Position numbers and translations under genes: made by a program
Shown: positions 1 through 7,391 of the stretch, piece after piece
Numbering within the stretch: position 1 is the stretch's first letter
Layout: each line of letters opens with the position of its first letter
The notes under the pieces: generated by a model
The model's database searches: none
What the model was told of the DNA's origin: nothing
Seen by the model: the letters and a program-made list of their open reading frames with translations, nothing else
Assembly: GCF_900129235.1 (NCBI RefSeq)
Contig: NZ_FQUV01000004.1
Span: 310,001-374,000, forward strand
Length of the DNA: 64,000 bases
Source: Litoreibacter ascidiaceicola
GTDB taxonomy: Bacteria > Pseudomonadota > Alphaproteobacteria > Rhodobacterales > Rhodobacteraceae
Direction: 5' to 3'

Positions 1-90
1 GCCCATCAGCGCCAGTTGGCCCGTCGCATAGGGCCCCGCCAGCACATGGGTGAGGTCGAGAATTCTTATGCCTGTCAGCGGCTGGGTCAT
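1..90 (-). CDS. Family III CoA-transferase (CaiB/BaiF type), N-terminal fragment
   Basis: Only the first 30 codons are in the window; the gene runs off the left edge. The visible N-terminus reads MTQPLTGIRILDLTHVLAGP and continues YATGQLALMG, the typical opening of CaiB/BaiF CoA-transferases (G-x-x-V/I-L-D-L-T-x-V-x-A-G-P). Members move CoA between carboxylic acids through a mixed-anhydride/thioester on a conserved Asp, which lies beyond the window. The ATG overlaps the stop of the upstream fumarase-like gene as ATGA, so it is the last visible gene of the operon that begins at 4168. The substrate cannot be read from this fragment; a dicarboxylate or hydroxy-dicarboxylate is the inference from its neighbours. 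Confidence 0.85.
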   Translation of the reverse strand, partial: MTQPLTGIRILDLTHVLAGPYATGQLALMG

Positions 91-1046
91 TCCGCCGCTT
101 CCATCGCGGGGGCGTCCCAGTCGACGGTTTCGCGGCGTTGGTAGTCGGTGAACCAGTCGGGGTCGGTGCGATATTCCACCCGACCATCCGCGAACACCCG
201 CGCCACTGCGCGCCGTGAGGACAGGCAGAAGGCGTGGACGGACATTTGCATGCCGCCAGTGTGGCAGTAGCCCACTTCGATATTGCAATCGACGACCATG
301 GATTTGCCGACGAAGCCCATCGCCCCCATGCCGATAGAGTTGCCGATCTCCTTGAATTCCCGCTCCAGCGCGGCGATTTTCGGGTCGGAGTTCTCGCTGC
401 CCACCGTGCGCAGGCAGGCGGCGCGCTTGCCCAAGACCATGCAGGTGTCCTTGCAGCCGCCAAGCCCGATGCCGATAATCGCGGGCTGGCAGGCAAGGCC
501 GCGTTTGCCGAAGGCCACGAGGCTGTCGAGATAGAACCGCTTGATCCCCTCGATCCCGTCGGAGGGGAAGAGCATCCGGTAATCGGTGCCGAACAACCCG
601 CCTTTATGGACGGTGATCAGGTCGATCCATTCACCGCCCGGCTCGTAGCCATATTCGATCTCCGGCGCGCCGATGCCCACGTTGTTGTCGTGGTCCGTGC
701 GCCAAAGCGGATGCACGCGATTGGGGCGCAACGGCACGCCGTTGGTGGCATTCGCAGTTGCGCGGCGCAGGGCGGCTTCTAGTGCGATTGGGCCGCCTTC
801 GATCTGCGTCTCGTTGCCCATTTTGACATACCAGCGCGGGGTGCCGGTGTCGCCGCACATGGCGCGGCGGTCTTCCTTGGCGGCCTCGTAGTTTTCCAGC
901 ATGGCCTGCAATACGAAGGAGGACAGGTCGCCGTCCTCCACATCTGCGGCGGCTTGCAACCCGTCGAGATAGTCCTGCGGGATTTCGATGGCCGCCTTGT
1001 CCATCAGGGTCTCGGCGGTTTTCTGGATGATGTCGATGGGGATCAT
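87..1046 (-). CDS. Class I fumarase / L(+)-tartrate dehydratase family, alpha subunit
   Basis: A 319-residue protein of the iron-sulfur hydro-lyase alpha family (TtdA / FumA-alpha). Cysteines placed to bind the catalytic [4Fe-4S] cluster are C64 in MCGDTGTP, C202 in a Gly-rich GIGIGLGGCKDTC segment, and C261 in GYCHTGG. The family hydrates or dehydrates fumarate, tartrate, mesaconate and similar C4-C5 acids. I chose the ATG at 1046 because it overlaps the preceding stop (ATGA), although the frame stays open further upstream. The partner beta subunit normally sits next to alpha; here a CoA-transferase follows directly, so beta is either past the left edge or elsewhere. The exact substrate is unresolved. 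Confidence 0.85.
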   Translation of the reverse strand: MIPIDIIQKTAETLMDKAAIEIPQDYLDGLQAAADVEDGDLSSFVLQAMLENYEAAKEDRRAMCGDTGTPRWYVKMGNETQIEGGPIALEAALRRATANATNGVPLRPNRVHPLWRTDHDNNVGIGAPEIEYGYEPGGEWIDLITVHKGGLFGTDYRMLFPSDGIEGIKRFYLDSLVAFGKRGLACQPAIIGIGLGGCKDTCMVLGKRAACLRTVGSENSDPKIAALEREFKEIGNSIGMGAMGFVGKSMVVDCNIEVGYCHTGGMQMSVHAFCLSSRRAVARVFADGRVEYRTDPDWFTDYQRRETVDWDAPAMEAAE

Positions 1047-2800
1047 TCTGCGGCCTCCACTAATGAGACGGGTTCGCCTTCGGGCAGGATCGTCTCGCCC
1101 GGTTTGACGATGGTGAACTGGACGTCCTCGCGGGTGACGTCGAGGGTGTTGCCTGTTTGGCGGGCGACGGTGAAATAGCTGCTCTCCATCGCGCCGCTGT
1201 CCGGGAAGTCCTCGCGGTAATGTGCGCCTCGGGAGTTTTCGCGGGCCAGCCCCGCCTTGGTGATGACTTCGGAGATTTCGCAGAGCGACGCCATGTTGAG
1301 CCAATCGTGCCATGTCAGGTTGAAGGCGAGGTTGTCGCCTGCGACGCCAGCTTCCAGCAATTCGGCCTGAATGTCGGTGATGCGGGTCAGGCCGCGCTCC
1401 ATCCCGATTTCCGTGCGCATGACGCCCACGTCTTCCCACATGGCCTCCTGCAACTTGTCACGAAGCGGCTGGATCGGGGCGATCTTGTTTTGTAGCGGGC
1501 GGAGAGCGCGGGCCACTTCGGCTTCCAAAACGCTCTCGTCAGGGTCGCGGAGCGCGCCCATGTTGCGGATATCCATGCCCATCACGTCGCCCGCGACGCC
1601 GCCATAAACGGTGGAGTTCGCCACCCCGTTGCCGCCCAAACGGTTGGAGCCGTGGGCACCGCCCGCATCCTCACCCGCAACGTAAAGGCCTTCCAGCGCG
1701 GTGCGGGTGTCGGGATCGACCACGACGCCGCCCATGAAGTAATGCGCAGTCGGCACGACCTCGACCAGCCCGGCGGCCAGATCGAAGCCGCTATCGGCGC
1801 AGCGCTTGACCATGCCGGGGAATTTTGCGCGGACGTTGTCGGGGCCAAGGTGGGACATGGAGATGTATACGCCACCATTGGGCGTCGTCGTGTTCGACTT
1901 GCGCATTTCGGCGAAGATCCCGCGGCTGACCACATCGCGGGTGGCGCGTTCGCCCTTGGCGTCATAGTCGAACATGAAGCGGTTTTCCGCGCCGTTCAAA
2001 AGCTGCCCGCCCGCGCCGCGCAGGCCCTCTTCCAGCACTGTGCCGGTCATCTTGGTGTGGTCGCCCGCCAGAAGTCCGGTGGGGTGGAACTGCACCATTT
2101 CCATATCGCGCAGAGGCAGGCCGACACGCAGCGCCATGGCGAGGCCGTCCATCGTCTTGTCGCCGGAGGGCGTATGATACTTGTACATGGTCGGCCCGCC
2201 GCCAGTGCCCATCAGCACGGTCTTGGCGCGCACGAAACGGAACTTGCCGCTGCGCATGTCGATCATCAACACGCCCGCAAGCGCGCTGCCGTCTTTGGTC
2301 GGGATCAGCCCGATGGCGCGGTGCTCTTGCAGCTTTTCGACGGGGCGGGACAGGACCTGCTCCATCAGGCGGTTGATGATCTCGATACCGGTCAGGTCGC
2401 CCTTATGCACGGTGCGGTCCGCCGTCTGGCCCGCGAAGGCCTTTTGGTGCAGAGAGCCATCGGGGTTGCGGTCGAAGAAGCAGCCGATCTCGTTTTCCAG
2501 CTCTCGAATGCGCACGACGGCCTGTTCGCACAGCTTCCACGCCATATCCTGATTGGGCAGCCATTTTCCGCCTTGGATGGTGTCCATGAAATGCCGCTCG
2601 ACCGTGTCGCCGCCGCCAAGGGCCACGTTGTAGCCGCCTTGCACCATGCGGGTGCAGCCGCATTTGCCGATCAGACCTTTGACGGCAATGGTAATCTTGG
2701 TTCCTGCGGGCGCAGTTTGTTGCGCGTGGAGGGCGGCGAACATGCCCGCCCCGCCGGTGCCGAGGATCAGGATGTCGGTGTCGTGTCTCTCGATCTGCAT
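1043..2800 (-). CDS. Succinate dehydrogenase/fumarate reductase-like flavoprotein subunit
   Basis: A 585-residue FAD enzyme of the SdhA/FrdA superfamily. The Rossmann motif GTGGAGMFAA is at residues 14-23. Dicarboxylate-binding and catalytic positions are kept: FHPTG (H239), LRGAGG (R261), DVVSRG (R293), AHYFMGG (H353) and GSNRLGGNG (R387). The histidine that carries covalent FAD in SdhA/FrdA aligns with C49 in GKCGCTRMVQGG, so FAD is probably non-covalent. The ATG at 2800 overlaps the previous stop as TGATG, and it is followed by the fumarase-like alpha gene, again with ATGA overlap. It should oxidise or reduce a succinate-like acid at the membrane together with the three preceding genes. 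Whether the substrate is succinate itself is open. Confidence 0.85.
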   Translation of the reverse strand: MQIERHDTDILILGTGGAGMFAALHAQQTAPAGTKITIAVKGLIGKCGCTRMVQGGYNVALGGGDTVERHFMDTIQGGKWLPNQDMAWKLCEQAVVRIRELENEIGCFFDRNPDGSLHQKAFAGQTADRTVHKGDLTGIEIINRLMEQVLSRPVEKLQEHRAIGLIPTKDGSALAGVLMIDMRSGKFRFVRAKTVLMGTGGGPTMYKYHTPSGDKTMDGLAMALRVGLPLRDMEMVQFHPTGLLAGDHTKMTGTVLEEGLRGAGGQLLNGAENRFMFDYDAKGERATRDVVSRGIFAEMRKSNTTTPNGGVYISMSHLGPDNVRAKFPGMVKRCADSGFDLAAGLVEVVPTAHYFMGGVVVDPDTRTALEGLYVAGEDAGGAHGSNRLGGNGVANSTVYGGVAGDVMGMDIRNMGALRDPDESVLEAEVARALRPLQNKIAPIQPLRDKLQEAMWEDVGVMRTEIGMERGLTRITDIQAELLEAGVAGDNLAFNLTWHDWLNMASLCEISEVITKAGLARENSRGAHYREDFPDSGAMESSYFTVARQTGNTLDVTREDVQFTIVKPGETILPEGEPVSLVEAAE

Positions 2801-3141
2801 CAGATGGCCCTCAGAAGGAAAATGCCCGCCAGAAAGGTCGAGGCGGCGACGGTGCTGGCGGCGGCGGTTTTCTGGCCCGATGTCCACGGCAGGAACTCCA
2901 GCGCCATTAATCGCAATCCGCCGAGCATGTGGACGGAGAGCAGGAAGACGAGGCCGAATTCTGCGAATTTGACGATGGGTGTTTCCGCCCAGTGCAGGAA
3001 CCCGTCCAGCTTTTGCGGCGCGTTGAGAGCGTAGGATAGCACCCAGAAATGGGCGGGCAGGAACAAAGCCAAGGCGACGCCGGAGATGCGGTGCAGCAGG
3101 AACGCGATCCAGAGCGTGTGGGTGCGGTGTCCGTGTATCAT
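2800..3141 (-). CDS. SdhC-like cytochrome b membrane anchor of the dehydrogenase complex
   Basis: A 113-residue protein with three predicted membrane segments. It carries the SdhC-like LLHRISGVALALFLPAHFW segment near the N-terminus and, in the second half, SVHMLGGLRLMALE, which resembles the heme-ligand motif H-x4-GxRH of succinate dehydrogenase cytochrome b. It would anchor the flavoprotein and Fe-S subunits and pass electrons to or from quinone. The start at 3141 was chosen from the ATGA overlap with the preceding gene; a longer in-frame extension lacks any anchor-like sequence. It sits between another membrane subunit and the flavoprotein in a fully overlapping operon. Confidence 0.8.
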   Translation of the reverse strand: MIHGHRTHTLWIAFLLHRISGVALALFLPAHFWVLSYALNAPQKLDGFLHWAETPIVKFAEFGLVFLLSVHMLGGLRLMALEFLPWTSGQKTAAASTVAASTFLAGIFLLRAI

Positions 3142-3467
3142 ATCGCGGTGACCCCGTAGACCGCCTGCATCCCGAGGATCAGGAGCAGGGCGAGGATACC
3201 CCATGCGGCCGCGTTTAAGCCCATGCCGCGCAGGCCCGCCCATTCCGAGAGCACCGTGCGCAACCCGATGGCCGCGTGGATGGAGACGGCGACGACGAAT
3301 GTGCCGTAGAATAAGAACCACAGGATGCTGCCTTGGGTGCGGCCAAGGATTTCCGCCGCCGACAAGCCGCCTTGGATGGCGTAGATCATCACCGCGATAT
3401 GCATCAGCACCAGCGGCGCCATGATCAGCGCCGTGATGCGTTGCGCCATGTAGAGCTTTAGCGTCAT
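3138..3467 (-). CDS. Second small membrane anchor subunit of the dehydrogenase complex
   Basis: A 109-residue protein with three predicted hydrophobic segments. It begins MTLKLYMAQRITALIMAPLV, has H in LVLMHIAVMIY, and carries SIHAAIGLRTVLSEW, an H-x4-GLR motif like the heme-binding helix of SdhC/SdhD anchors. Together with the next gene it gives two membrane subunits, as in four-subunit succinate:quinone oxidoreductases. Its start overlaps the stop of the Fe-S subunit (ATGA) and its stop overlaps the next start, pointing to translational coupling. Whether it binds heme cannot be settled from sequence alone. Confidence 0.75.
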   Translation of the reverse strand: MTLKLYMAQRITALIMAPLVLMHIAVMIYAIQGGLSAAEILGRTQGSILWFLFYGTFVVAVSIHAAIGLRTVLSEWAGLRGMGLNAAAWGILALLLILGMQAVYGVTAI

Positions 3468-4168
3468 GTGCGCCTCTTGAAGAAGTTGCGGGCGGTTTCG
3501 CGCTTCAGGCCCGCGATGGCGTTCATCGGGTTCAACTCGTTGGGGCAATGCACCGCGCAACTACCCTGACTGTGGCAGTTGTGGCAGCCGCCCACGCCGG
3601 AGACCGCATCCAAAATCGCCTGCTTGTTGGCGTCCTTGCTGTCGTTATAGACGCTCCACGCCCGTTGCAGGGCGGCGGGGCCGAGGTAGTCGGGATTGCC
3701 CGCAACCGTGTCACAGGCGGCGTAACAGACGGAGCAGTTGATGCATTCGATCCCTGCGTTGATTTCGACACGGGCGGCGTTTGTGGGGTCTATAGCCTCG
3801 ATCGGATCGTCGCGGGTCTGGGTCGGGTGGTGCAGACCCTCTGCGGCGACCCATTTGTCGAAGAACGGGTCCATGTCGGTGGCCAAGTCCTTGATGACGG
3901 GCAGGTTCCGAAGGGGGCCAATTTCCATGTGGCCGTCTTTCAGCACCTTGTTGACATGGGTGCGGCAGGTCCAGCGCGGGACGCCGTTGACCATCATCGC
4001 GCAGGAGCCGCACATGCCAACGCGGCACGCATAACGGTAACTGAGCGTCGGGTCGGCGTATTGCTGGATCCACGCGACGACGTCGAGGACGGTCTGGTTG
4101 TCCTCCATCTTCACGTCAAAGGATTGGAACGCGCCTGTGGCCCCGCCGCGCCAGACGGATACGGACAT
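3464..4168 (-). CDS. Succinate dehydrogenase/fumarate reductase-like iron-sulfur subunit
   Basis: A 234-residue SdhB/FrdB-type ferredoxin protein. The [2Fe-2S] ligands are C48, C53, C56 and C68 (CRVGMCGSC then WTC). The dicluster domain has C142, C145, C148, C152 (CINCSVCYAAC) and C198, C204, C208 in CHSQGSCAVHCP, with an extra C195 just before. It carries electrons between the flavoprotein and the quinone site. It is the first gene of the operon. I prefer the ATG at 4168 over an in-frame ATG at 4249, because family homology starts at 4168 and the earlier start lacks a ribosome-binding site, though the one at 4168 (AAAGAG) is also weak. Confidence 0.85.
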   Translation of the reverse strand: MSVSVWRGGATGAFQSFDVKMEDNQTVLDVVAWIQQYADPTLSYRYACRVGMCGSCAMMVNGVPRWTCRTHVNKVLKDGHMEIGPLRNLPVIKDLATDMDPFFDKWVAAEGLHHPTQTRDDPIEAIDPTNAARVEINAGIECINCSVCYAACDTVAGNPDYLGPAALQRAWSVYNDSKDANKQAILDAVSGVGGCHNCHSQGSCAVHCPNELNPMNAIAGLKRETARNFFKRRT

Positions 4169-4358: not shown

Positions 4359-4973
4359 ATGTTGACGCTCTATTATGCCAAGGGGACCGCCGCCTTGCCG
4401 GTCCATATTGCCTTGGAAGAGGCAGGGGCCGCCTATGACTTGCACCTGCTGGAGTTCGCCAACAAGGACCATTTGCAGCCGGAGTATCTGGCGATTAACC
4501 CCAAGGGCCGCGTGCCGGCGCTGGTCACGCCGGACGGCGTGTTGACCGAAACACCCGCGCTGTTGGCCTATATCGGGCAGGTGTTCGAGGCAGCTAAGTT
4601 GATCCCCGACACGCCGTTCGGCTTCGCAAAGGCGCAGGAGTTCAATCAGTATCTGGCGGCGACTGTTCATGTGGCCCACGCGCATAAGCACCGTGGGGCG
4701 CGGTGGTCGGACGACGCCGCGTCGCAGGATGCGATGCGGGCGAAGGTGGCCTCGAACATGACGGAGTGTGCGGGTCTGATCGAGACGCGCTATCTGCAAG
4801 GGCCGTGGGTGATGGGCGAGCAGTATACGGTTTGCGATCCGTATTTATTCTTGGTGGCGCGGTGGCTGAAGGGCGATGGCGTGGATGACAGCGCGTTTCC
4901 GAATATTTTGGCGCACCGTGCGCGGGTGGAAGCGCGACCGGCTGTGCAGGCGGTTTTGAAGCACCATGACTAA
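4359..4973 (+). CDS. Glutathione S-transferase family protein
   Basis: A 204-residue soluble GST. The N-terminal thioredoxin-like domain opens MLTLYYAKGTAALPVHIALEE. It has the cis-Pro region NPKGRVPALVTPDGVLTET, with the E-T(S) glutathione-binding pair, and the all-alpha C-terminal domain contains MGEQYTVCDPYLF, the usual D-containing N-capping helix. It probably conjugates or reduces small electrophiles with glutathione. The start at 4359 follows GGGGAGGAAC. An earlier in-frame ATG at 4326 lies before that ribosome-binding site and is not used. The stop lies 8 bases inside the next gene, so the pair is co-translated. Confidence 0.88.
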   Translation: MLTLYYAKGTAALPVHIALEEAGAAYDLHLLEFANKDHLQPEYLAINPKGRVPALVTPDGVLTETPALLAYIGQVFEAAKLIPDTPFGFAKAQEFNQYLAATVHVAHAHKHRGARWSDDAASQDAMRAKVASNMTECAGLIETRYLQGPWVMGEQYTVCDPYLFLVARWLKGDGVDDSAFPNILAHRARVEARPAVQAVLKHHD

Positions 4974-5793
4974 CGGGCTGTCCGACGTTCTGGCCGCGCG
5001 GTTCATGGATGCCCCTGATGTGCCAGAGGAATTGCAGGAAAACCCTGTGTTGCAGGGGATCGCGGGGCGGGCGTCGTGTCGGGCGTTCCTGCCCAGGCAG
5101 GTTCCGTTGGAGGTGCTGAAAACGCTGAGTGCTGTGGCGCTGTCGTCGCCGTCGAAAAGCGACCTGCAACAGCGCGACATCGTGATTGTCGAGGATGCGA
5201 AAGTGAAGGCGCAGTTGGTGGAGCTGGTGTCTGCGCAGGCGTGGATCGCGGGTGTGCCGTCTTTGGTGGTCATTTGCGCCAACAACCGCCGCCAGCGGCA
5301 ATTGCACGAGATGCAGGGGCTGGGCTTTGCCAACGACCATCTGGACGCGTTTTTCAACGCCAGCGTGGATGCGGGGATCGCCTTGGCGAGCTTTGTGATC
5401 GCGGCGGAGGCGGCTGGCTTGGGTTGCTGCCCGATCAGCACCATTCGCAACCACGCGCAGGAGGCGAGCGAGTTGTTGGGCCTACCGGACCATGTGTTTC
5501 CGGTGGCGGCCTTGGCATTGGGGTATCCTGCGAGCGAGGGGCAGATCAGCCCACGATTGCCCTTGCGGGCGACGGTGCATGTGGACCGGTTCAGCGAAGA
5601 CCCTGCGCGGGATTTGGCAGAATACGATGCCCACCGTGCGCAGGTGCAGCCGTATCGGACGCAGCGCAGTGCGGAGCTTTATGGAACCAGCGACCGCTAC
5701 ACTTGGTCGATGGACAAAGCGCGGCAATACAGTCTGCCGGAGCGGGTGGACTTCGGGGCTTTCATCAAGGCCAAGGGCTTCACGCTGGACTAG
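4966..5793 (+). CDS. Nitroreductase family protein (FMN-dependent)
   Basis: A 275-residue protein of the NADH oxidase/nitroreductase family. RASCRAF at about residues 35-41 matches the family's R-x-S-x-R-x-F FMN-phosphate motif. ALSSPSKSDLQQ is the usual A-P/S-S-x-x-N/D-x-Q-P region, and EAAGLGCCPISTIRN is the C-terminal FMN-binding stretch. The family reduces nitro compounds, quinones or enones with NAD(P)H. It overlaps the GST gene by 8 bases and meets the thiamine-diphosphate enzyme tail to tail with 4 shared bases. A joint role with the GST in detoxifying electrophiles is a reasonable but unproven reading. Confidence 0.85.
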   Translation: MTNGLSDVLAARFMDAPDVPEELQENPVLQGIAGRASCRAFLPRQVPLEVLKTLSAVALSSPSKSDLQQRDIVIVEDAKVKAQLVELVSAQAWIAGVPSLVVICANNRRQRQLHEMQGLGFANDHLDAFFNASVDAGIALASFVIAAEAAGLGCCPISTIRNHAQEASELLGLPDHVFPVAALALGYPASEGQISPRLPLRATVHVDRFSEDPARDLAEYDAHRAQVQPYRTQRSAELYGTSDRYTWSMDKARQYSLPERVDFGAFIKAKGFTLD

Positions 5794-7391
5794 TGCGCGG
5801 CCCCGCTGGGGGCGGGCAGGCCCTCGATCTGGACGTTGACGCAGGCGGGTTTGCCGCTTTGCACCGCGCGGTCGAGGGCCGCGTCGAGGTCGGCCAAGTC
5901 CGTGACGTATTCGCCATGCGCACCCAAGCCTTTAGCTGCCTCGTCGTAGCGCGCACCGCTGAGTTCGCATCCGATCAGGCGGTCGGGGCCGTAGTCGCGC
6001 AGCTGGATTTGGTGCTCGGCGTTCCAGCGCTCGTCGTTGCCGATGACGACCACATAGGGGAGGCCTGCGCGGGCGGCGGTCTCGAATTCGGCGAAGTGGA
6101 ATCCCACGGTTCCGTCGCCCATCAGGGCGAAGACTGTGGCGTCGGGGTGGGCGGCTTTGGCGCCGATCCCGTAGCACAGCCCGCCGCCGATAGCCCCGGA
6201 GATGCCGTTGGTCACCCGCAGATCCGCTTGCGTGGCGGCTTGCGCCCATTGGCCGAACTCGCCGCCATCGCAAATCATGATCGAGCGCTCGGCCTTGTCG
6301 ATTTGCCGCTGCACGGCGGCACAAAGCTGGGCGGGCGTGATTTTGCCGGACGGCACGGTGTCGCCCTCGCTGAAGCTGCGGGCTGCGAGGTTGATTGCGA
6401 CCTGTTCGCGCCATGTGTCATGGCCGCCATGGCCCGCCGCAATGAGCGCGTCGATGCTGTCGCGCGGGTCGGCAGCGAAGCAGGCTTTGAGGCGGGTGCC
6501 AAGGTTTCGGTGGGCGCGGTCGCGTTCGGCGGCGCAGGGTTGGACGACGATCCAGTCGCAGGACGGGTCGACGACGTTTGCGCTGCCGAACCCGAGGGTG
6601 AAGTCGATGCGCTTTCCCAAGGTTACGATAAGGTCGGCCTGCGCCAAGGCTTTGCCGACATTGCCCAAGGCCGGGTCTTTCAGCCCGCGCGGGCTTTCCA
6701 TCGCGATCACGGGCGCGCCCAAGGCATCCTGCAACGCGGCGAGCTTGCCGGGGTTGCGGGTGTCATTCATGGCGGGGCCGCACAGGATCAGCGGACGCTC
6801 CGCCTTGGCGATCGCCTGCGCGATGGTTTCAGCGTCGGCTGCGGGCAAGGGCATCGGCTCCTTGCCAAGCGCTGTGGGGATGGTGCCGCCCGTCGCATCT
6901 GCGTCGACCAGATCGAAGGGCAGGGCCATATGCACGGGGCCGGACCTGCCGGACAGCGCTGCGCGCAAGGCGCGGGCGGTGTCGGTGCCGAAATCGGTCG
7001 CGCGGATCGGGCGGAAGGACAGCTTGGTGACGGGCGTGGTCATCGGCACCTGATCGAGTTCCTGAAACGCGCCCCTCCCGTCCTGGCCAAGGGGCGAGTC
7101 GCCGGTGAGCAGCAGGACGGGGGTTTCCGACTCGGACGCCGTGAACAGCGGACCCAGAGCGTTCGCAGCGCCCGCGCCTGCGGTGACCATGGCGACGCCG
7201 ACGGTGCCAGTGAGTTGCGCATAGGCTTCGGCCATGAACACCGCGGCGGCCTCGTGGCGGGTGTGGATGATCTCGATCCCTGCATCAAAGCAGGCGTCAT
7301 AGACCGGCATGATCTGATTGCCCGACAGCGAAAAGATGCGCGTGACGCCTGCGGCGGCCAGCGTTTTTACCAGAAGGTCTGCGCCTCTCAT
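5790..7391 (-). CDS. Thiamine diphosphate-dependent enzyme, acetolactate synthase-like
   Basis: A 533-residue protein with the three-domain layout of the acetolactate synthase/benzoylformate decarboxylase family. E47 in IIHTRHEAAAVF is the conserved glutamate that activates the thiazolium. The middle domain is Rossmann-like. The C-terminal domain has GDGTVGFHFAEFETA, the GDG...N-type Mg-ThDP motif, ending at GN in VVVIGNDE. The family decarboxylates 2-oxo acids or makes C-C bonds. It is short for a biosynthetic IlvB and has no IlvN neighbour, so a catabolic enzyme is more likely. It is transcribed divergently from a GlxA-type regulator. The substrate is unknown. Confidence 0.8.
   Translation of the reverse strand: MRGADLLVKTLAAAGVTRIFSLSGNQIMPVYDACFDAGIEIIHTRHEAAAVFMAEAYAQLTGTVGVAMVTAGAGAANALGPLFTASESETPVLLLTGDSPLGQDGRGAFQELDQVPMTTPVTKLSFRPIRATDFGTDTARALRAALSGRSGPVHMALPFDLVDADATGGTIPTALGKEPMPLPAADAETIAQAIAKAERPLILCGPAMNDTRNPGKLAALQDALGAPVIAMESPRGLKDPALGNVGKALAQADLIVTLGKRIDFTLGFGSANVVDPSCDWIVVQPCAAERDRAHRNLGTRLKACFAADPRDSIDALIAAGHGGHDTWREQVAINLAARSFSEGDTVPSGKITPAQLCAAVQRQIDKAERSIMICDGGEFGQWAQAATQADLRVTNGISGAIGGGLCYGIGAKAAHPDATVFALMGDGTVGFHFAEFETAARAGLPYVVVIGNDERWNAEHQIQLRDYGPDRLIGCELSGARYDEAAKGLGAHGEYVTDLADLDAALDRAVQSGKPACVNVQIEGLPAPSGAAH

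Follow-up and report, generated by a model that had tools for sequence, protein, structure and literature searches.

The closest described relatives of the locus considered here belong to the Krebs cycle and to organosulfonate breakdown. Complex II (SdhABCD) comprises an iron–sulfur subunit, two membrane anchors and a flavoprotein, and in housekeeping succinate dehydrogenase the FAD is covalently bound via a conserved histidine. Class I fumarase, L-tartrate dehydratase and mesaconase share an alpha–beta organisation and three aligned Fe–S cysteines. The 3-sulfolactate clusters (SuyAB, SlcC/ComC, SlcHFG, ComDE–Xsc) combine Tct uptake with TauE/YeiH export and begin at sulfolactate. A homotaurine route in Roseovarius nubinhibens runs through 3-sulfopropionate, sulfoacrylate and sulfolactate, according to a thesis cited in PMC11489063. 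For the steps from 3-sulfopropionate to sulfolactate, the literature searched, which was incomplete, yielded no gene assignment.

The window (the whole 64,000-nucleotide stretch of Litoreibacter ascidiaceicola DNA that was analysed) opens on a cluster of seven minus-strand genes, sdhB-C-D-A, hydratase alpha, a CaiB-type CoA-transferase and hydratase beta, for which a role in organosulfonate metabolism is, in our judgement, very probable. The cluster runs on into the contig stretch left of the window (L005), only 90 bases of the CoA-transferase gene lying inside the window. The features are as follows:

L005:13298-13963, minus strand, left of the window: hydratase beta subunit (Pfam Fumerase_C, 76 bits)
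1..90, minus strand: first 30 codons of a CaiB/BaiF (family III) CoA-transferase of 376 amino acids, the rest at L005:13960-15000 (CoA_transf_3)
87..1046, minus strand: class I fumarase-type hydratase alpha subunit, 319 amino acids (Pfam Fumerase)
1043..2800, minus strand: SdhA-like flavoprotein, 585 amino acids, proposed sulfonate dehydrogenase (Pfam FAD_binding_2 and Succ_DH_flav_C)
2800..3141, minus strand: SdhC/D-type cytochrome b subunit, 113 amino acids (Sdh_cyt, 44 bits; TIGR02970 above cut-off)
3138..3467, minus strand: SdhC/D-type membrane anchor, 109 amino acids (Pfam Sdh_cyt, 35 bits)
3464..4168, minus strand: SdhB-like iron–sulfur subunit, 2Fe-2S plus 4Fe-4S dicluster (Pfam Fer2_3 and Fer4_17 above cut-off)
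4359..4973, plus strand: glutathione S-transferase-like protein, divergent from the operon (family name from a relative's annotation)
4966..5793, plus strand: nitroreductase-family protein (Pfam Nitroreductase)
5790..7391, minus strand: thiamine-diphosphate (TPP) enzyme, distantly related to acetolactate synthase and 2-hydroxyacyl-CoA lyase

From sdhB to the CoA-transferase gene, successive overlaps are 4, 4, 1, 4 and 4 bases, confirming the tight cluster with 4-base and one 1-base overlaps described in the first-pass annotation. The hydratase beta subunit that the annotation had sought left of position 1 is present there, overlapping the CoA-transferase gene by 4 bases. All seven proteins score above the cut-off of a Pfam family. 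The sdhB start was taken to be an ATG; a TTG further upstream is also possible.

The gene-order comparison that the annotation had called for was made on the best 80 of 561 loci from other genomes (the named loci), among which R. nubinhibens does not figure. The order sdhB-C-D-A-alpha-beta is complete in 76 of the 80, with the remaining four ending at a contig edge, so the arrangement is not due to chance. Genes in the relatives' loci were called automatically and only roughly, leaving out short ORFs and frames that overlap, and homologue matches shorter than half the query were discarded from the neighbour counts. All counts are of loci rather than independent events, L132/L138, L104/L188 and L146/L191 being the same or nearly the same organisms. 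The 81 loci referred to below are the window plus the 80 named loci, 20 loci form a more divergent set, and 114 loci are 81 + 20 + 13 (L190 and L191 excluded); the 16 stretches L184–L199 enter only the counts of 117, of 116 (without L192) and, in part, of 114.

A canonical sdhC-D-A...B set lies on the same contig, around 240 kb from the operon (C17, about 66–72 kb), its SdhA scoring far above the sdhA_forward equivalog cut-off. The operon genes are therefore not the only sdh genes in the genome, and the possibility that they encode the housekeeping enzyme can be set aside. The SdhA-like protein itself falls below every NCBIfam SdhA/FrdA cut-off among the families listed (25 of 28). Compared across a family of 94 sequences, it resembles the complex II flavoprotein in retaining H242, R286, H354 and R399, which together with T254 form the substrate site (E. 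coli SdhA numbering; E250, below, refers to FrdA). It differs from complex II, in 94 of 94 sequences each time, in that the FAD-linking histidine is replaced by cysteine, T254 by glutamate and FrdA-E250 by alanine, and in a six-residue insertion bearing an invariant lysine or arginine. Glutamate at the T254 position is not an obvious sulfonate binder and counts against a sulfonate substrate. Relatives of this SdhA occur on 16 plasmid records.

The hydratase is altered in a comparable manner. Both subunits are present and the three Fe–S cluster cysteines are aligned, placing it in the class I fumarase family, but the CQDTG motif, found in 7/7 ordinary homologues, is replaced by C-[GA]-D-T-G in 100/100 orthologues, and RPNV has become RPNR in the same 100/100. 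The operon hydratases form a separate group, with at least 67% identity to that of the window versus at most 36% for the other homologues met. Orthologues, the window genome included, were found in 34 of 295 sampled genomes of the family, 24 of 385 of the class and 10 of 398 of the phylum.

What might these enzymes act upon? The annotation had proposed that a C4–C5 dicarboxylate (methylsuccinate, mesaconate, citramalate) is oxidised, hydrated and CoA-activated for a malyl-CoA-type lyase, in which case the sulfonate-type neighbours described below would be coincidental. Class I fumarases do hydrate mesaconate (PMC4682846), and a CoA-transferase is embedded in the window operon, its CoA_transf_3 match (328 bits) covering 366/366 positions, although its scores are far below the NCBIfam cut-offs. 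Only nine of the 80 named loci, however, have a CoA-transferase gene between alpha and beta (one of the nine in fragments), and none of the 20 more divergent loci does; in five loci, weak or partial relatives occur in other parts of the flanks. Searches with the genome's CitE-type protein (E 1e-10) and its mesaconyl-CoA-hydratase-type protein as queries found no relative in the 114 loci, among them the 15 kb to the left of the window. With the sulfonate neighbours in addition far above chance, this proposal is highly improbable, and, given the rarity of the transferase and the lack of CitE-type relatives in the loci searched, we reject malyl/citramalyl-CoA logic as the core. What survives of the original idea is a dehydrogenase and hydratase pair for a succinate analogue, without CoA activation at its centre. 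The pseudomonad itaconate/methylsuccinate cluster (Ict-Ich-Ccl-Mcd-Msi) likewise has a CoA-transferase and degrades a succinate analogue, as we propose for the operon, but acts on CoA thioesters and includes a lyase (PMC12290011), whereas the operon loci contain CitE-type relatives in 0 of 114 cases.

The left flank, in which CoA-thioester genes had been expected, does hold one CoA enzyme, but its type points to sulfur chemistry: an acyl-CoA dehydrogenase homologue at L005:5192-6418 matches the NCBIfam family of 3-sulfinopropanoyl-CoA desulfinase with 662 bits (cut-off 600). In this sub-clade, the embedded CoA-transferase and the desulfinase some 9 kb away could form a 3-sulfinopropionate branch, in which CoA transfer would be followed by release of propionyl-CoA and sulfite, the locus serving C3 sulfur acids including a sulfinate. 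Both genes are also present in L074, and V. paradoxus TBEA6 pairs a succinyl-CoA-dependent CoA-transferase with the same desulfinase, the title cited in PMC6370202 naming a class III transferase. The window locus shares this combination of desulfinase and family III CoA-transferase with the thiodipropionate branch (Act, AcdA), which is described without an SDH or hydratase step (PMC6370202). Against this, a desulfinase is found in only five of 117 stretches, few loci thus linking it to the operon, and seven of nine named transferase loci (intact or broken), besides L074 and the window, have flanks without one. We regard such a branch as possible but somewhat doubtful; it is compatible with, and does not exclude, the sulfopropionate reading set out below. 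The CoA-transferase would be an accessory of some loci only, and in this genome it may work for the neighbouring desulfinase.

The neighbours that recur across loci indicate organosulfonates rather than C5 dicarboxylates. A gene of the TauE (sulfite exporter) family is near the operon in 60 of 81 loci; with 5–17 TauE genes per genome (mean 7.5, n=30), our own arithmetic gives a chance expectation of about 3% for one within 20 kb. YeiH-family genes occur in 10 of the 81 and genes for a SorA-like molybdoenzyme in nine, and overall a sulfite/sulfate exporter or sulfite-oxidase-like gene is linked in 62/81 loci (51/59 of those of at least 18 kb). Such genes are much rarer in the 20 divergent loci, with TauE in five, a SorA-like gene in one and YeiH in none. 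TauE-family proteins also export other anions. In P. versutus and NT-25 the YeiH gene overlaps hydratase beta by 4 bases; in six loci YeiH begins no more than 3 bases from the end of the beta match, and in nine, one of them divergent, the SorA-like gene begins 0–57 bases past it (distances measured from the end of the tblastn match rather than from annotated stops). The SorA-like protein lacks the SorA arginine at the aligned position and its sulfite activity is unsure, so the gene was downgraded as firm proof of sulfite release. As a calibration, the 31 YeiH family matches in 29 genomes included eight no more than 4 kb away from Xsc or from a 394-amino-acid (SuyB-sized) PF04295 gene, six in the sdh–hydratase operon and one adjoining a TIGR01275 (CuyA-family) gene.

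Sulfite-handling genes adjoining beta suggest that sulfite may be produced by the operon itself: 3-sulfopropionate would be oxidised to sulfoacrylate, water added onto the sulfonate-bearing carbon, and the resulting alpha-hydroxysulfonate would collapse to malonate semialdehyde and sulfite, cleaving the C–S bond. In Pseudomonas sp. MPC6, a gene for a CoA-acylating (methyl)malonate-semialdehyde dehydrogenase (MMSDH; 695 bits, cut-off 448) overlaps beta by one base and is followed by NIPSNAP and YeiH, and L170 and two Cupriavidus plasmids likewise have MMSDH homologues close to the operon. The operons of Limimaricola pyoseonensis and Citreimonas salinaria include YeiH, and both genomes lack Xsc and PF04295 but carry TIGR01275 (CuyA-family) genes. 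MMSDH is nevertheless confined to four of 117 stretches, such a route would make Suy-, Slc/ComC- or CuyA-type genes near the operon needless, and the intermediate given by the thesis that PMC11489063 cites is sulfolactate. We consider hydrative desulfonation unlikely; if true, two duplicated Krebs-cycle enzymes, the fumarase-type hydratase and the SDH-like complex, would make up an entire desulfonation route that dispenses with CoA, alongside the Xsc, Suy and Cuy routes already described.

Suy-, Slc/ComC- or CuyA-type genes are indeed found near the operon, though in only 11 of 116 stretches, some being the same organism twice. On M. oryzae and M. radiotolerans plasmids, one run comprises sdhBCD-alpha-beta-sdhA, a TPP enzyme, TauE, two UxaA-family genes of SuyA/SuyB size, a 2-hydroxyacid dehydrogenase that we labelled SlcC-like and a gene closest, among NCBIfam families, to L-sulfolactate dehydrogenase, with a score below cut-off. 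The P. versutus pTAV3 locus adds YeiH, NIPSNAP, Tct and relatives of both Methylobacterium dehydrogenases, and that of NT-25 adds gabD and a sulfolactaldehyde-reductase-like gene just below cut-off; GabD-type enzymes are known to make 3-sulfopropanoate (PMC5320631). A haloarchaeal SdhA relative has two UxaA genes and TauE as neighbours. The appearance of these C3-sulfonate genes demoted a further candidate, in which sulfosuccinate is converted via sulfofumarate to oxaloacetate and sulfite. The four retained SdhA residues fit this pathway, which would account for a hydratase pocket that has lost glutamine and gained arginine, and Tct transporters would suit trianions. The known-type genes alongside the operon are nonetheless of the C3 kind (Suy-, Slc/ComC-, CuyA-, sulfolactaldehyde-reductase-like), and the literature searched, mainly surfactant and oil-spill work, held no gene work on sulfosuccinate; we judge the pathway improbable.

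The TPP enzyme is a possible sulfopyruvate-type decarboxylase; 29 other stretches have homologues close to the operon, and in Methylobacterium the gene follows sdhA immediately. The nitroreductase cluster recurs in 17 other loci and the glutathione S-transferase-like cluster in nine, the window included. An MR_MLE gene is also among the neighbours; the pathway proposed below does not account for these four kinds of gene, which counts against it.

Across the family, Xsc is present in 29 of 34 operon-bearing genomes versus 157 of 261 others (Fisher p 0.004, tallied by eye and without tree correction). Of the five operon-bearing genomes without Xsc, two have a PF04295 match and three lack PF04295 and have TIGR01275 genes; both families also cover other enzymes. 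ComE is above cut-off in 17/34 operon-bearing genomes, the only set counted. The window genome has Xsc and ComE, located elsewhere, its single PF04295 gene (544 amino acids) is not SuyB-sized and it gave no match to TIGR01275, so that a route here would need ComDE and Xsc.

Expression data come from Paracoccus strain Merri, in which growth on sulfofucose raised nine proteins of the cluster MDP0926751-0926761, with TauE as ...757, grouped under 'fumarate and tartrate metabolism' and reported as unassigned (PMC12421959). Our Merri locus (L138) contains sdhB-C-D-A-alpha-beta-TauE-LysR and three ABC-transporter genes, 11 in all with TauE seventh, and looks like this cluster, the match being by gene order and position only. 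Induction by sulfofucose does not name the operon substrate. In public records the genes are labelled as coding for an FAD-binding protein and a fumarate hydratase, and the same proteome study placed the apparent cluster under the Krebs cycle (PMC12421959).

Taking the observed gene order, its conservation, the altered pocket residues and the sulfonate-type neighbours together, the best reading, which we favour by a little over even chances, is a quinone-linked 3-sulfopropionate dehydrogenase and a sulfoacrylate hydratase that lead to 3-sulfolactate. The membrane-bound SdhABCD-like enzyme would oxidise 3-sulfopropionate (the succinate analogue) to 3-sulfoacrylate (the fumarate analogue), and the [4Fe-4S] alpha–beta hydratase would add water to give 3-sulfolactate (the malate analogue). 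Import would rely on TctCBA or TauABC-like transporters controlled by a LysR regulator. Other enzymes of the locus or of the genome at large (SuyAB; SlcC/ComC followed by ComDE and Xsc; or CuyA) would then remove the sulfonate group as sulfite, with TauE/YeiH-type exporters and sulfite dehydrogenases disposing of the sulfite. The exact substrate and product are close to an even call, and we infer the direction of the reactions. The operon shares Tct uptake and TauE/YeiH export with the 3-sulfolactate clusters, and in some loci Suy-, SlcC- or ComC-like genes adjoin it; it would place two steps with TCA-type enzymes upstream of the sulfolactate at which those clusters begin.

Algae, plants and sulfosugars are sources of C3 sulfonates, which make up a large share of the organic sulfur cycle. 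The company that the operon keeps across many bacteria suggests that this marine bacterium uses a second, altered set of two Krebs-cycle enzymes to break down small sulfonated acids, rather than in a CoA pathway. If true, this would be a clean case of a succinate–fumarate–malate enzyme pair retuned for sulfonates, and a clear gene set for the conversion of 3-sulfopropionate to sulfolactate would allow the process to be traced in genomes and metatranscriptomes.

The first 4.2 kb of the window carry, on the minus strand, sdhB, sdhC, sdhD, sdhA, the gene for the alpha subunit of a hydratase and the beginning of that for a CaiB-type CoA-transferase, with successive overlaps of 4, 4, 1, 4 and 4 bases. 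The beta subunit, which the first-pass annotation had suggested looking for left of position 1, was found by extending the sequence leftwards into the same contig (stretch L005), and Pfam backs each gene assignment from sdhB to hydratase beta. The operon's remaining genes and neighbours are:

Window 5790-7391: TPP enzyme
Continuing left of the window: CaiB-type CoA-transferase, 376 aa, 4-base overlap with hydratase beta
Left of the window: hydratase beta subunit, 221 aa
L005:12168-13301: enolase-superfamily (MR_MLE) gene, first gene left of beta, dehydratase or racemase?
Left of the enolase-superfamily gene: TauE/SafE transporter gene
Left of TauE/SafE: LysR-type regulator (our reading)
Left of that regulator: TctC-TctB-TctA-type genes (our reading)
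Left of the Tct-type genes: second LysR-type regulator (our reading)
L005:5192-6418, about 9 kb left of window position 1: acyl-CoA-dehydrogenase-like gene, NCBIfam 3-sulfinopropanoyl-CoA desulfinase (662 bits, equivalog cut-off 600)

The TPP enzyme, possibly a sulfopyruvate-type decarboxylase, is present in 29 other stretches with the operon; in Methylobacterium its gene lies directly behind sdhA. An enolase-superfamily gene is found near the operon in 16 other loci.

The operon is real and conserved. Scanning named genomes gave 561 confirmed relatives. The best 80 of these, examined with their flanks, include Roseovarius, Paracoccus, Litoreibacter, Hoeflea, Bradyrhizobium, Pelagibius and others; 76 of the 80 have all six core genes in identical order and the remaining four end at a contig edge; the same order is seen in 13 of 20 divergent loci. 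Counting the window genome each time, hydratase alpha orthologues occur in 34 of 295 genomes of its family (at least 69% identity), 24 of 385 of its class (at least 67%, below which identity falls straight to 36% or less) and 10 of 398 of its phylum. SdhA relatives lie on 16 plasmid records, including those of Cupriavidus, Methylobacterium, Pseudomonas and, at 48%, a haloarchaeon. This patchy distribution across the sampled genomes fits a module that has probably moved laterally. Separately, L156, L164, L167 and L168 have hydratase alpha-beta without sdhBCDA in the examined stretch (L164 being cut just before alpha), with ABC transporter genes immediately upstream in L167, and the alpha match contains one stop codon in L038, L054, L059 and L072, assembly error being a possible source.

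It had been proposed that the operon dehydrogenates, hydrates and activates its substrate, giving a malyl-CoA type product for a lyase. The first two steps hold up as a pair, being conserved together in the 76 complete loci. A CoA-transferase lies between alpha and beta in nine of the 80 named loci (L074-076, L086, L087, L099, L101, L128 and L139) and in none of the 20 divergent ones; in five more loci, weak or incomplete relatives occur at other places in the flanks. Neither the CitE-like nor the mesaconyl-CoA-hydratase-like protein of the window genome found a relative in 114 loci. Since the transferase is rare at this position and the CitE-like protein has no relative in those 114 loci, what is conserved is dehydrogenation together with hydration. 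The malyl-CoA logic falls outside this unit, and we have dropped it as the core of the operon, of which the CoA-transferase is a non-core member. The window genome's CitE-like gene and putative mesaconyl-CoA hydratase (the latter our reading) adjoin a canonical sdhC-D-A...B set about 240 kb from the operon. In L101 (Roseovarius marisflavi) the embedded transferase survives only in fragments, as if it were being lost. By analogy with Act and AcdA, a CoA-transferase/desulfinase pair in Variovorax (PMC6370202), the embedded transferase may serve the desulfinase; the two occur together only in the window and L074 among the loci compared. L074, L134, L145 and Sulfitobacter THAF37 (L199) each have a desulfinase relative close to the operon.

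We hold it very probable that the operon has an organosulfonate role. TauE-family genes are found at 60 of 81 loci (the window plus 80); at 5–17 TauE genes per genome (mean 7.5 in 30 of these genomes), chance alone would put one in about 3% of 20-kb stretches, by our arithmetic. In P. versutus and NT-25 a gene of the YeiH family (putative sulfate exporter) shares 4 bases with beta; at six loci such a gene begins no more than 3 bases from where the beta match ends, and at nine a SorA-like molybdoenzyme gene begins 0–57 bases beyond that point. SorA-like, YeiH and NIPSNAP genes are consecutive in Hoeflea (L096, L100). When YeiH was calibrated on 29 operon-bearing genomes, 31 matches were obtained: eight within 4 kb of an Xsc or 394-aa PF04295 (SuyB-sized) gene, six inside the operon and one adjoining a TIGR01275 gene. 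Against the sulfonate reading, however, the 20 divergent loci have TauE in five, SorA-like in one and YeiH in none. A minority of stretches (11/116) have Suy-, Slc/ComC- or CuyA-type genes close to the operon; in Citreimonas and sampled genome G199 a TIGR01275 (CuyA-family) gene is 6–9 kb from the hydratase genes. A small NIPSNAP-family gene, often beside YeiH, is found within the operon or immediately after it in 16 of 117 stretches (L104, L111, L119, L184, L188, L189 and others).

Annotated plasmids and named strains give fuller assemblies. In M. radiotolerans and M. oryzae, sdhBCD-alpha-beta-sdhA is in one run with the TPP enzyme, TauE, a pair of UxaA-family genes sized like SuyA and SuyB, a dicarboxylate carrier, a 2-hydroxyacid dehydrogenase and a member of the Ldh family; in NCBIfam this last gene scores best, below cut-off, for L-sulfolactate dehydrogenase. 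M. oryzae adds a molybdoenzyme and YeiH. P. versutus pTAV3 has the operon, YeiH, NIPSNAP, TauE, LysR, Tct and relatives of both Methylobacterium dehydrogenases. NT-25 has the operon, YeiH, NIPSNAP, LysR, TauE, TRAP, a sulfolactaldehyde-reductase-like gene just below its cut-off and gabD, GabD-type enzymes being described as able to form 3-sulfopropanoate (PMC5320631). M. nodulans has YeiH, TauE and two molybdoenzyme genes, one of them named soxC, both accompanied by a cytochrome c. On a plasmid of the haloarchaeon Natribaculum luteum (L186), SdhA- and SdhB-like genes have as neighbours a pair of UxaA genes, TauE and a gene annotated as argininosuccinate lyase; hydratase alpha had no match in this stretch, and the lyase-named gene may be an unrelated hydratase that takes its place.

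In Paracoccus Merri (L138) the 11 genes run sdhB, C, D, A, alpha, beta, TauE (seventh), LysR and three ABC transporter genes, and by this order and the position of TauE we take the block to be the published cluster MDP0926751-0926761, of which nine proteins are raised on sulfofucose and which was filed under 'fumarate and tartrate metabolism', with TauE as number 757 (PMC12421959). Homotaurine in Roseovarius nubinhibens is described as passing via 3-sulfopropionate and sulfoacrylate to sulfolactate (PMC11489063, citing a thesis by Jutta Mayer), the very sequence that a dehydrogenase and a hydratase would make, and sulfolactate uptake is assigned to the Tct-type system SlcHFG (PMC5812351). No gene assignment for the steps from 3-sulfopropionate to sulfolactate was found in the literature searched, where subscription papers and theses are sparsely covered and one may exist.

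On the favoured model, 3-sulfopropionate and quinone would give sulfoacrylate, which with water would give 3-sulfolactate, to be taken on by SuyAB, ComDE/Xsc or CuyA. In some genomes an alcohol or aldehyde may be the entry point: in L144, L150 and L152 a Zn-ADH gene ends 12–51 bases before the sdhB match, with SSADH-like genes nearby. A less likely rival is direct desulfonation to malonate semialdehyde, suggested by Pseudomonas MPC6, where an MMSDH gene overlaps hydratase beta. Xsc is present in 29 of 34 operon-bearing genomes vs 157 of 261 others of the family (p 0.004, kinship ignored), in the window genome together with ComE and away from the operon; we therefore lean to linkage with C3-sulfonate enzymes, although both products still fit. 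For the exact chemistry leading to sulfolactate, substrate and product, we put the chances at about even.

The predicted active sites bear on the substrate. All 94 SdhA-like sequences keep H242, R286, H354, R399, Q50, F119 and E255 (E. coli numbering), but have Cys for the FAD-linking His, Glu for T254, Ala for the Glu at FrdA position 250 and, before the pocket, a six-residue insertion with an invariant Lys or Arg, then a conserved T-G-T. In 100 hydratase alpha sequences C[GA]DTG replaces the CQDTG of ordinary homologues (7/7), and RPN is followed by Arg, at a position taken by Val in the solved fumarate hydratase 7xky. Half of each pocket is thus kept and half altered in a fixed way, as would fit a substrate with one carboxylate replaced, a reading that leaves the Glu at T254 unexplained. 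The operon most likely encodes two enzymes of TCA type adapted to organosulfonates.
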